Below the pieces are notes generated by a model. That model searched no databases. It was not told where the DNA came from and worked only from the letters and a program-made list of their open reading frames with translations. The translations under genes and the position numbers were made by a program. Of a stretch of DNA of 64,000 bases, positions 52,420-53,409 are shown one piece after another (position 1 is the stretch's first letter; each line of letters starts with the position of its first letter). The stretch spans positions 620,001 to 684,000 of the forward strand of contig NZ_JAFIMU010000007.1 of NCBI RefSeq assembly GCF_017302985.1, written 5' to 3'. This DNA comes from Corallococcus macrosporus. GTDB taxonomy: Bacteria > Myxococcota > Myxococcia > Myxococcales > Myxococcaceae.

Positions 52420-52502
52420 GCGCGGAGTCCTAACGTCCCGCCTGCCTGCTTGTCAGGACTGAATTTCCGTCGGCGTCGCTGGATGCGAAAGGAGCGGTCC
52501 CG

Positions 52503-52661
52503 ATGCGCCAGGAGACGTTGCAGGCCCCGATGAACCTCAAGCACCTGAACCCTTCCGGTCACGGCATCGCCGCGTCCTCGCGTCCCAGCCTGGTGACCGC
52601 TCCTTCCATGTGCCGCTGGCGGGACTTCGCGTCCTATCGCCTCGCCTCGCCCGGCTCCTGA
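52503..52661 (+). CDS. Possible 52-residue microprotein
   Basis: A small open frame, beginning MRQETLQAPMNLKHL, with AAAGGAG 8 nt before the ATG, mostly G/C third positions and a strong terminator 40 bp after the stop. The peptide has no recognised family. The SD and terminator together argue that something is made from here; a leader peptide or an untranslated RNA are alternatives. Confidence 0.4.
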   Translation: MRQETLQAPMNLKHLNPSGHGIAASSRPSLVTAPSMCRWRDFASYRLASPGS

Positions 52662-52700
52662 AGGCGCCACGCCCCGTCCCTGACGCGGCATGGCCCTGGA

Positions 52701-52735
52701 GGCCGGGCTCCCGACACGGGAACCCGGCCTTCTTC
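52701..52735 (+). terminator. Strong intrinsic-type terminator
   Basis: GGCCGGGCTCCCG (52701-52713) pairs with CGGGAACCCGGCC (52717-52729) across an ACA loop, with one C-A mismatch, and is followed by TTCTTC. It would end the transcript of the microprotein and separate it from the tRNA-like element. Confidence 0.7.
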
Positions 52736-52775
52736 ACGTCCGGGCTCCCGCGCTCCTCTTCCGCTTCCCACCCAT

Positions 52776-52842
52776 AGGCCGCGCACCGGGTGCAGTCCGA
52801 ACTCCAAATCCGGACGAGCAGGGTTCGACTCCCTGGCGGCCT
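52776..52842 (+). ncRNA. tRNA-like cloverleaf element upstream of the HNH gene
   Basis: Sixty-seven bases fold as a compact cloverleaf. The acceptor AGGCCGC (52776-52782) pairs perfectly with GCGGCCT (52836-52842). A 4-bp D-like arm (GCAC, GTGC) has a 3-nt loop. The anticodon-like arm has a CTCCAAA loop, whose central CCA is the tryptophan anticodon, in a 7-bp stem with one A-C mismatch. The T arm (CAGGG, CCCTG) has a canonical TTCGACT loop. The D loop is too short for G18-G19 and there is no CCA end, so it is not a normal tRNA. It lies 24 bp before the ATG of the HNH gene, so it may be a 5' leader structure. Confidence 0.6.
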
Positions 52843-52866
52843 GTTCCGCCCGAAAGGCCCCGTGTC

Positions 52867-53409
52867 ATGGAAACGCTGGTGCTGAGCCAGTCCTACGAAC
52901 CTGTCGCCCGCATCCCGTGGCAACGCGCCGTCATGCTGCTCGTGCAGGGCAAGGTGGAGGTCGTCGAAGAGTACGAGGACCGCGTCATCCGCTCCGTGAC
53001 GGTGGAGCTGCGCATGCCGTCCGTCATCCGCTTCGTGCGCGCCCTGTGGAAGGGCCCGCGCGGCGTGCGCTTCAGCCGCGAGAACGTCTACCAGCGCGAC
53101 CTGTGCCGCTGCCAGTACTGCGGCCGCAAGGTGACCCGTCCGGAGGCGACGTATGATCACGTCGTGCCGCGCGCCCAGGGCGGCCGCACGAGCTGGGAGA
53201 ACATCGTCATCGCCTGCGTGCCCTGCAATCAACACAAGGGCAACCGCACCCCGGCGCAGGCGCGGATGACGCTGCGCACCGTGCCCGCGAAGCCGAAGCG
53301 GCTGCCGGACGCGCTGGTCGTGTCGTTCCTCGTGGAGAAGGGCCTGCCGCTGTCCTGGCGCAAGTTCCTGAGGGACGTGGCCTACTGGCACACGGAGCTG
53401 GAAGCGTAA
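52867..53409 (+). CDS. HNH endonuclease
   Basis: A 180-residue HNH-family nuclease. The zinc cysteines CRCQYCGRK and CVPCNQHKGN flank the catalytic His in TYDHVVPRAQGG. The N-terminal 75 residues (METLVLSQSYEPVARI) are the conserved part of a widespread bacterial HNH group of unknown role. ATG 52867 was preferred because the sequence upstream is the tRNA-like element. Restriction or DNA-repair function cannot be decided; it is not fused to a specificity domain. Confidence 0.86.
   Translation: METLVLSQSYEPVARIPWQRAVMLLVQGKVEVVEEYEDRVIRSVTVELRMPSVIRFVRALWKGPRGVRFSRENVYQRDLCRCQYCGRKVTRPEATYDHVVPRAQGGRTSWENIVIACVPCNQHKGNRTPAQARMTLRTVPAKPKRLPDALVVSFLVEKGLPLSWRKFLRDVAYWHTELEA

Follow-up and report, generated by a model that had tools for sequence, protein, structure and literature searches.

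A compact tRNA-Trp and an HNH gene of phage-array descent behind a putative codon-matched leader attenuator in Corallococcus macrosporus and its relatives in Myxococcaceae

The window, a stretch of 64,000 nucleotides from Corallococcus macrosporus (RefSeq assembly GCF_017302985.1, contig NZ_JAFIMU010000007.1, positions 620,001 to 684,000), carries on its forward strand a tRNA-Trp gene with the anticodon CCA and a compact D arm (52776..52843, 68 nt including the discriminator G; identified by ARAGORN, alignment and covariance), which is followed after 23 nt by a gene for an HNH endonuclease of 180 amino acids (52867..53409; PF14279 HNH_5 and PF01844 HNH in the profile search). Both are preceded by a leader cassette. 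In sequence comparisons genus-wide homology begins at a promoter-like motif, TGTCAGGA-N15-CGTC (52451..52477), which by its consensus shape may be of the ECF type. A Shine-Dalgarno-like AAAGGAG (52488..52494) then introduces a leader ORF of 52 codons and a TGA stop, MRQETLQAPMNLKHLNPSGHGIAASSRPSLVTAPSMCRWRDFASYRLASPGS (52503..52661), that has homologous ORFs within the genus. It holds one Trp and one Tyr codon among its 52, and these are the proposed control codons, TGG at 52617..52619, 14 codons ahead of the stop, and TAT at 52635..52637, 8 codons ahead of it. Folding predicts that a segment at the end of the ORF, GCCCGGCTCC (52649..52658), pairs as an antiterminator with the 5' arm of a terminator-like hairpin (52699..52735, paired from 52701 to 52729) that runs into a weak T run, TTCTTC; the window transcript folded up to the terminator 5' arm yields -41.1 kcal/mol. 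The locus would thus possess a short leader ORF with a ribosome binding site upstream of structural genes, the arrangement expected of an attenuator.

The first-pass annotation had reported a tRNA-like cloverleaf of 67 nt, 24 bp ahead of an HNH gene. Element and place stand, with 68 nt for the mature part and 23 nt for the gap, and the analysis confirmed that the cloverleaf is a real tRNA-Trp(CCA), tied to the HNH gene, whose fold covaries. ARAGORN calls a tRNA-Trp(CCA) of 70 nt at 52775-52844, and the minimum free energy of -33.1 kcal/mol corresponds to a z score of -2.77, with one of 200 shuffles equally good. The 7-bp acceptor, the CTCCAAA anticodon loop and the canonical T arm (a 5-bp stem with a T loop of the TTCGANT type) are all present as first described, and no CCA is encoded, the discriminator G being followed by TTCC. 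The D arm, previously termed collapsed, is indeed reduced in that positions 8-9 are missing, but it still forms a hairpin GCAC-CGG-GTGC, with 4 bp and a 3-nt loop, directly after the acceptor. The anticodon stem spans 7 positions and in the window copy contains one A-C mismatch, the 7-nt loop being closed beyond it.

The same 68-nt element is found 19-24 nt ahead of the HNH start in all 16 loci of the genus Corallococcus, and ARAGORN itself detects it in 15 of these. In the nearest named record, Corallococcus sp. AS-1-6 (L061), the HNH protein is 97% identical and the cloverleaf is the same. Covariation had been proposed as a check: in a set of 11 distinct sequences chosen as homologues and held against a fold that we supplied, 98.4% of cells were paired, 8 pairs had changed on both sides, and none of 500 shuffles was as good.

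The compact build is common to the array tRNA-Trp genes of L048 and L049 (other genera), L064 (a Myxococcales MAG) and L150 (a viral contig), with D stems varying between GCAC/GTGC, GCTC/GAGC, GCGC/GCGC and GATC/GATC. A covariance model derived from the compact set and run on 52 of 337 loci gave 12 matches at 78-97 bits, made up of its own members and additional copies; among the latter were one in L300 that ARAGORN had missed and one with an encoded CCA in L244, an array from another family. Below 78 bits it found mostly other tRNAs, and a canonical tRNA-Trp scored 42 bits. CCA is unencoded in the copies of the genus and encoded in several array homologues. The Rfam tRNA model RF00005 gave nothing for the window element at the gathering threshold, nor was it among the 53 matches at E<=10, and the tRNA-Sec model scored 24.4 bits on it, under the cut-off of 47. 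These genes form a conserved class that is missed by the Rfam tRNA model and sometimes by ARAGORN. Ordinary tRNA-Trp and tRNA-Leu(CAG) genes are present elsewhere in the genome, and a third call for tRNA-Trp(CCA), with the anticodon loop CTCCAGA, was obtained in L336 (G000:C7:1840850-1841200).

The HNH gene product matches its profile above the cut-off and has the D-H..N..CxxCN..K core, and a mean dN/dS of 0.23 across the genus indicates purifying selection. Its AlphaFold model, of medium confidence (pLDDT 70.6), matched in the PDB the HNH domains of Cas9/IscB and an HNH protein from Geobacter. Note that the NCBIfam matches to Cas9d and IscB are far under their cut-offs, and that these structural similarities say nothing about RNA guidance.

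Relatives of the HNH gene occur in 58 of 59 related genomes and by our reading fall into a closer group with 56-100% identity and a distant one with mostly 42-52%. From the closer group 30 loci were fetched (L031-L060). The expectation that homologous HNH genes would likewise follow a cloverleaf held in 23 of them, where a tRNA lies within 1.5 kb upstream, in four cases in runs of 10-19 tRNAs; in the other seven (L051-L055, L057, L059) no tRNA was called within this distance. In other genera the HNH gene is preceded by different tRNAs (Pro, Leu, Ala or arrays). Outside the order, the nearest relatives found were on viral contigs, within arrays of 8-37 tRNAs. The best 12 (contigs of 100-210 kb, 49-64% identity) all lie among 8-37 tRNA/tmRNA genes, one array being common to two of these contigs. 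For the best 80 viral relatives, the fetched DNA contains one or more tRNAs in 55 cases and at least 8 in 26. In L056, from another family of the same order, an HNH gene 66% identical and thus slightly closer than the viral ones is also part of an array. In addition, the gene order Leu(GAG)-Leu(CAG)-Leu(CAA)-HNH-Ser is common to the viral contigs L146 and L148 and the chromosomal array L048. Because of this kinship with viral tRNA arrays and the shared gene order, the tRNA-Trp and HNH pair of the window is clearly the remnant of a phage-type tRNA array, shrunken with retention of the HNH gene. Within the viral arrays tmRNA genes were also seen beside HNH (L143:1879-2250, L148:3192-3543). A long variable arm is a normal feature of bacterial tRNA-Leu, and L048, L056, L060 and L222 contain array-type tRNA-Leu of 73-77 nt that lack it.

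The promoter-like motif, the Shine-Dalgarno-like sequence, an ORF of 38-52 codons and a GC-rich hairpin are present in 16 of 16 loci of the genus, and this regulatory part (motif, ORF, hairpin) is situated about 40-325 nt upstream of tRNA-Trp; the gap from hairpin to tRNA is about 30-46 nt in the window and L042. Downstream follow tRNA-Tyr and tRNA-Trp in five loci and tRNA-Trp alone in 11, and then HNH. All 16 leaders contain the Trp codon, in the context R-W-R, and the Tyr control codon is kept in 5/5 loci with tRNA-Tyr and in 4/11 without. Leader dN/dS is about 1 in this Trp family, so that the coding status of the ORF there rests on the ribosome-binding site, the frame and the codon match; in some other leader families it is 0.04-0.53.

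The search for the cassette covered 96 genomes of the family Myxococcaceae. The string TGTCAGGANTGN{2,5}TTCC occurs just twice in the 9.8-Mb genome, both times ahead of array-type tRNA units, and 18 times in the 96 genomes, 16 times ahead of such units, with 2 occurrences for a reversed control. The second unit of the genome (L222, G000:C7:562500-564500), about 109 kb upstream on the same contig, consists of a leader ORF, a hairpin, tRNA-Pro(CGG) and a 76-nt tRNA-Leu(CAG) without long variable arm; a reverse-strand ORF behind it (L222:1197-1952 or longer) appears from its sequence, HDLRHTYGSHL..HSTIEMTMRYAH, to be tyrosine recombinase-like. A wider promoter pattern gave 86 matches vs 21 for its reversed control. 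Four of these stand apart (the window unit, a Trp unit of G007 (L037), an array of G029 (L241) and a contig end in G020), and at 65 of the remaining 82 sites, our first set, a leader and a tRNA were read. The other 17 comprise five sites with HNH only (L253-L256, L316), nine that look like chance, L264, whose tRNA-Trp ARAGORN had missed, and L290 and L315, which are broken or cut. For a second set, with predictions written beforehand, we used a pattern with GTCAGG[CGT] that the first pattern cannot match, and obtained 82 matches vs 28 for the control. After merging of identical copies, a leader and a tRNA were present at 64 of 81 distinct sites (one of them, in L372, a cut duplicate of the L364 site), namely at 64 of 69 with the usual spacing and at none of the 12 others. 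As five of the 64 units (L242, L343, L344, L347, L348) had already been seen as HNH loci, the second set was largely, not wholly, unseen.

By a hand tally of loci, 56 of 96 genomes contain at least one unit, and in 101 of 129 units the sequence read, which extended to at most 2.4 kb per unit, contains no HNH gene. Outside the family the promoter pattern gave 3 matches in 49 genomes vs 5 for the control; its first version is missing from 80 viral loci, and among ten array loci checked only L241 has it. A still looser pattern, which in many genomes matched about as often as its control, was not used for counts. Among the matches listed, a site of comparable shape, GTCAGGA..CGTC[GA]T..GGTGAAGG[AG]G or a close variant, was noted in five genomes of one genus (G059:C1:8126077, G060:C1:5482878, G062:C203:51546, G063:C1:9388031, G022:C1:7947461). 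In L253-L256 and L316 the HNH gene stands directly behind the promoter pattern, without a tRNA, and neither a leader ORF nor a GGCCGGG hairpin was found ahead of it; the HNH gene thus seems to be a member of the regulon even by itself. The shortest leaders, with 22 codons ending in ..WRRYRRLF or ..WRRSRRLF, are those of L277, L280 and L285, and the switch may be at its simplest here; L277 has no separate GGCCGGG terminator, and its two hairpins have one strand in common.

The codons of the leaders follow the tRNAs downstream. A Glu-Leu-Leu unit has a leader with the sequence LDTALDLLLGLELLLG, Glu abounds in the leaders of Glu-Arg-Val units, and leaders end like ALAPVALATALAPALLGDTAGGRPPGT in units with Gly, Ala, Leu, Pro and Asp tRNAs and like GRATARDSKRGATSRRDLPPGF in Asp and Arg units. 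Paralogous leaders change along with the tRNA: at a place taken by Leu in the Pro-(Leu) paralogues, the leaders of three tRNA-Met units carry DSM[ED]L; the three are likely orthologues and hence count as one event. Since many units are related by descent, statistical tests were run on leader families or tRNA-set groups, although these still share some ancestry, and an earlier test with hand-set amino-acid sets was superseded by an automated one. In the first set, for units with up to 5 tRNAs, tRNA sets were permuted among 10 leader families (200000 permutations, floor 5e-6), and the codon match had p 1e-5 for leaders as a whole, 2.6e-3 for the part ahead of the last 20 codons and, for those 20, the floor of 5e-6. 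When codons were limited to those read by the exact anticodons, p was 5e-6 and 5e-4; when each unit was represented by its first tRNA alone (12 families), it was 5e-6 and 1e-4. After homologous families had been merged, leaving seven, 4 and 2 of the 5040 arrangements were as good. The second-set test was restricted to units of no more than eight tRNAs, 53 of the 64; its 25-codon window, tRNA-set grouping and tRNA-chaining rule were fixed in the test script, outside the predictions written beforehand. Codons for a group's own tRNAs exceeded those of other groups in 22 of 22 tRNA-set groups over the whole leader (p 5e-6, the floor), in 21 of 22 within the last 25 codons and in 19 of 22 in the codons before (p 0.0013). 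In the 11 units with tRNAs for Ala, Asp, Gly, Leu and Pro, these residues make up 87% of the last 25 codons vs 64% elsewhere.

Leader codons therefore match the product of the operon, a match that is weak for the window's family taken alone, where enrichment is slight (0.030 vs 0.022 over the whole leader, 0.075 vs 0.033 in the last 20 codons). Note that the enrichment is weaker yet present in the N-terminal part of the leaders, where stalling would matter less, and that leader N-termini are alike between units with different tRNAs.

Competition between the two RNA structures was assessed by calculating the cost of freeing the terminator 5' arm as a function of the position of the leading edge of a ribosome on the leader. 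In the window this cost is 15.6-20.2 kcal/mol for edges from -45 to -9 relative to the stop codon, falls to 9.0 at -6 and to 5.4-5.5 from -3 to +3, and is 5.9-9.2 beyond +3, with 9.2 at +12. A comparable step is seen in most of 25 representatives. Against dinucleotide shuffles that keep the terminator arm and scramble the upstream RNA, the drop was superior (p<=0.05, 100 shuffles) in 58 of 61 scorable units of the first set; L261, L300 and L306 failed at 0.05, and L277, L280, L285, which has hardly any terminator, and L287 were unscorable among the 65 units. The mean drop exceeded the shuffled mean in 11 of 11 families (4.9-15.2 vs 0.4-0.8, Wilcoxon p 0.0005), and in the second set it beat 60 shuffles in 58 of the 62 scorable units among 64, with four failing. 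This test was devised after a negative one: the plain duplex energy between leader end and terminator arm was no better than shuffles (3/64 at p<=0.05), in a calculation whose script took another hairpin in some Pro-Leu units, and it is hence the position-dependent test that carries the antiterminator. A hairpin between leader stop and terminator seems to recur among the units, yet it beat shuffles (p<=0.05) in only 11 of 26 representatives and is not relied on. By the edge calculation, the segment that competes for the terminator 5' arm would be masked once a ribosome stands at the stop codon. Assuming a footprint that extends some 13 nt downstream from the first A-site nucleotide, stalls at the codons 8 and 14 before the stop would put the leading edge at about -11 and -29, so that both control-codon stalls would fall inside the sequestered range.

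Taken together, we consider it quite probable from these sequence features that the units are ribosome-mediated attenuators sensing a shortage of their own operon's tRNAs, and that the array-remnant tRNA-Trp and HNH are under such control. Transcription would start from the motif at 52451, and a ribosome would translate the 52-codon leader. On reaching the stop codon it would cover 52649-52658, the hairpin 52701-52729 would form, and transcription would end before the tRNA. If the tRNA were short and the ribosome stalled at the Trp (or Tyr) codon, the last leader codons would pair with the terminator 5' arm, the terminator would be blocked, and RNA polymerase would proceed into tRNA-Trp and HNH. 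Each operon would thereby refill the tRNA whose lack had stalled its leader, and the same device, with leader codons altered to match, would stand ahead of other spare-tRNA units across Myxococcaceae. The tRNA-Trp itself, if charged and functional, would be a supplementary, structurally minimal one, all that is left of the tRNAs in a phage-type array that has shrunk without losing its HNH gene. A failed translation start should likewise give read-through, so that the units would also respond to general translational stress. Additional tRNA would not relieve a lack of amino acids, and the signal of use to the cell is therefore probably the disappearance of the tRNA itself, for example its cleavage by phage-defence or toxin tRNA nucleases.

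The first-pass annotation had suggested that the cloverleaf acts as a regulatory leader of the HNH mRNA, or as substrate or partner of the nuclease. The fixed order of the genes, with 19-24 nt from tRNA to start codon in the genus, would suit such a role, as would the promoter pattern common to HNH and tRNA units even where no tRNA is adjacent. Against it stand the 101 of 129 units without HNH in the DNA read, the Pro, Leu and Ala tRNAs or arrays before HNH in other genera and the five HNH genes behind that promoter without a tRNA. We found no support for the cloverleaf as a target or partner of the nuclease, and regard this pair of proposals as highly improbable; the cloverleaf as a regulator of HNH was rejected, as most units show no HNH in the DNA read and the promoter also precedes HNH genes that have no tRNA beside them. 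What stood of the proposal is that regulation seems to be involved, with the tRNA read as a product and the sensor part located upstream, also before units that show no HNH in the DNA read. That the leader ORF is instead the gene of a small protein with its own terminator, tRNA and HNH being reached by chance read-through or from a hidden promoter below the hairpin, would agree with the hairpin coming after the ORF, the similar N-termini and the low dN/dS of some leader families. We think it quite unlikely in view of the short distance from hairpin to tRNA in the window and L042, the C-terminal composition that tracks the tRNA set, and the position-specific pairing of leader end and terminator arm.

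The clear array ancestry might also mean that tRNA-Trp and HNH are decaying leftovers without present function. The absence of an encoded CCA in the genus, unlike in several array homologues, the missing tRNA-Tyr neighbour in 11 of 16 loci and the A-C mismatch in the window copy all point this way, whereas retention of the element at every one of the 16 genus loci, homologues in which both sides of a pair have changed, purifying selection on HNH and leader codons that track tRNA content render a plain relic unlikely. A reading as pseudogene only was likewise held unlikely, given covariation and conservation.

With the units read as attenuators, leader peptides seem to spell out the tRNAs they control, many times over in one bacterial family. 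This offers a direct codon-level handle on the purpose of spare tRNA arrays and on the sensing of a missing tRNA, and an attenuator would explain why an HNH gene accompanies such tRNAs and shares their promoter. More speculatively, and as a tentative proposal that we would not yet favor, phage tRNA arrays may have been domesticated in Myxococcaceae to serve as a repair layer addressed by codons, in which leaders report a tRNA lost, for instance, to a defence or toxin nuclease and induce nuclease-resistant compact replacements together with an HNH DNase directed against invader DNA.

Leader-peptide attenuation is textbook knowledge for amino-acid operons (trp, his, leu, pheST), with which the present units share a leader ORF with product-matched control codons, competing antiterminator and terminator, and a stall that leads to read-through. 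They differ in that the output would be tRNA genes and a nuclease, that one leader may sense several amino acids, and that the signal would be a tRNA shortage repaired by the operon itself. In the T-box riboswitch, uncharged tRNA is bound directly and its state controls transcription termination; the units resemble it in that termination would be governed by tRNA state, but here a translated ORF would be the sensor, and an Rfam scan of the window gave no family, T-box included, at gathering thresholds.

The initial remark that no such system had been described holds for the attenuator cassette, as full-text searches of open-licence PMC papers, to the extent of the passages they return, gave no report of leader-peptide attenuation of tRNA genes. 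It does not hold for HNH genes together with tRNA arrays, which are already known: in the portions consulted of two papers, they lie among extra tRNAs in Mycobacterium and mycobacteriophage arrays (PMC5966550, PMC12803027), and the M. avium array tRNAs are described in such passages as redundant with the chromosomal set and different in D arm and anticodon domain. A tRNA array unit is defined in the corresponding section of PMC5966550 by at least 20 tRNA genes; the window, with one tRNA, falls short of at least 20 close tRNA genes, and its HNH gene is homologous to those inside arrays. An HNH gene embedded among extra tRNAs is thus the common feature, and the difference is the shrinkage to one or two tRNAs behind a putative leader-peptide attenuator; neither 'attenuat' nor 'leader' occurs in the text of PMC12803027. 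In Anabaena PCC 7120, according to the excerpts of PMC10272220, the trn operon of spare tRNAs is silent until translational stress, and without TrcR the HNH gene all8564, rtcB and the trn operon are derepressed together. Spare tRNAs and an HNH gene respond to stress there as well, although by other means, with the repressor TrcR at the promoter controlling the whole operon as these excerpts have it, in place of the codon-specific attenuation proposed here. Finally, defence nucleases, those of retrons included, can act by destroying a single tRNA, as the accessible part of PMC11555353 has it, and phages counter tRNA-cleaving nucleases with spare replacement tRNAs (PMC11555353, PMC10264068, in extracts). 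Those are phage genes that, in the same extracts, have a strong promoter or anticodon-loop changes, whereas the units described here are chromosomal genes, apparently induced by the missing tRNA.
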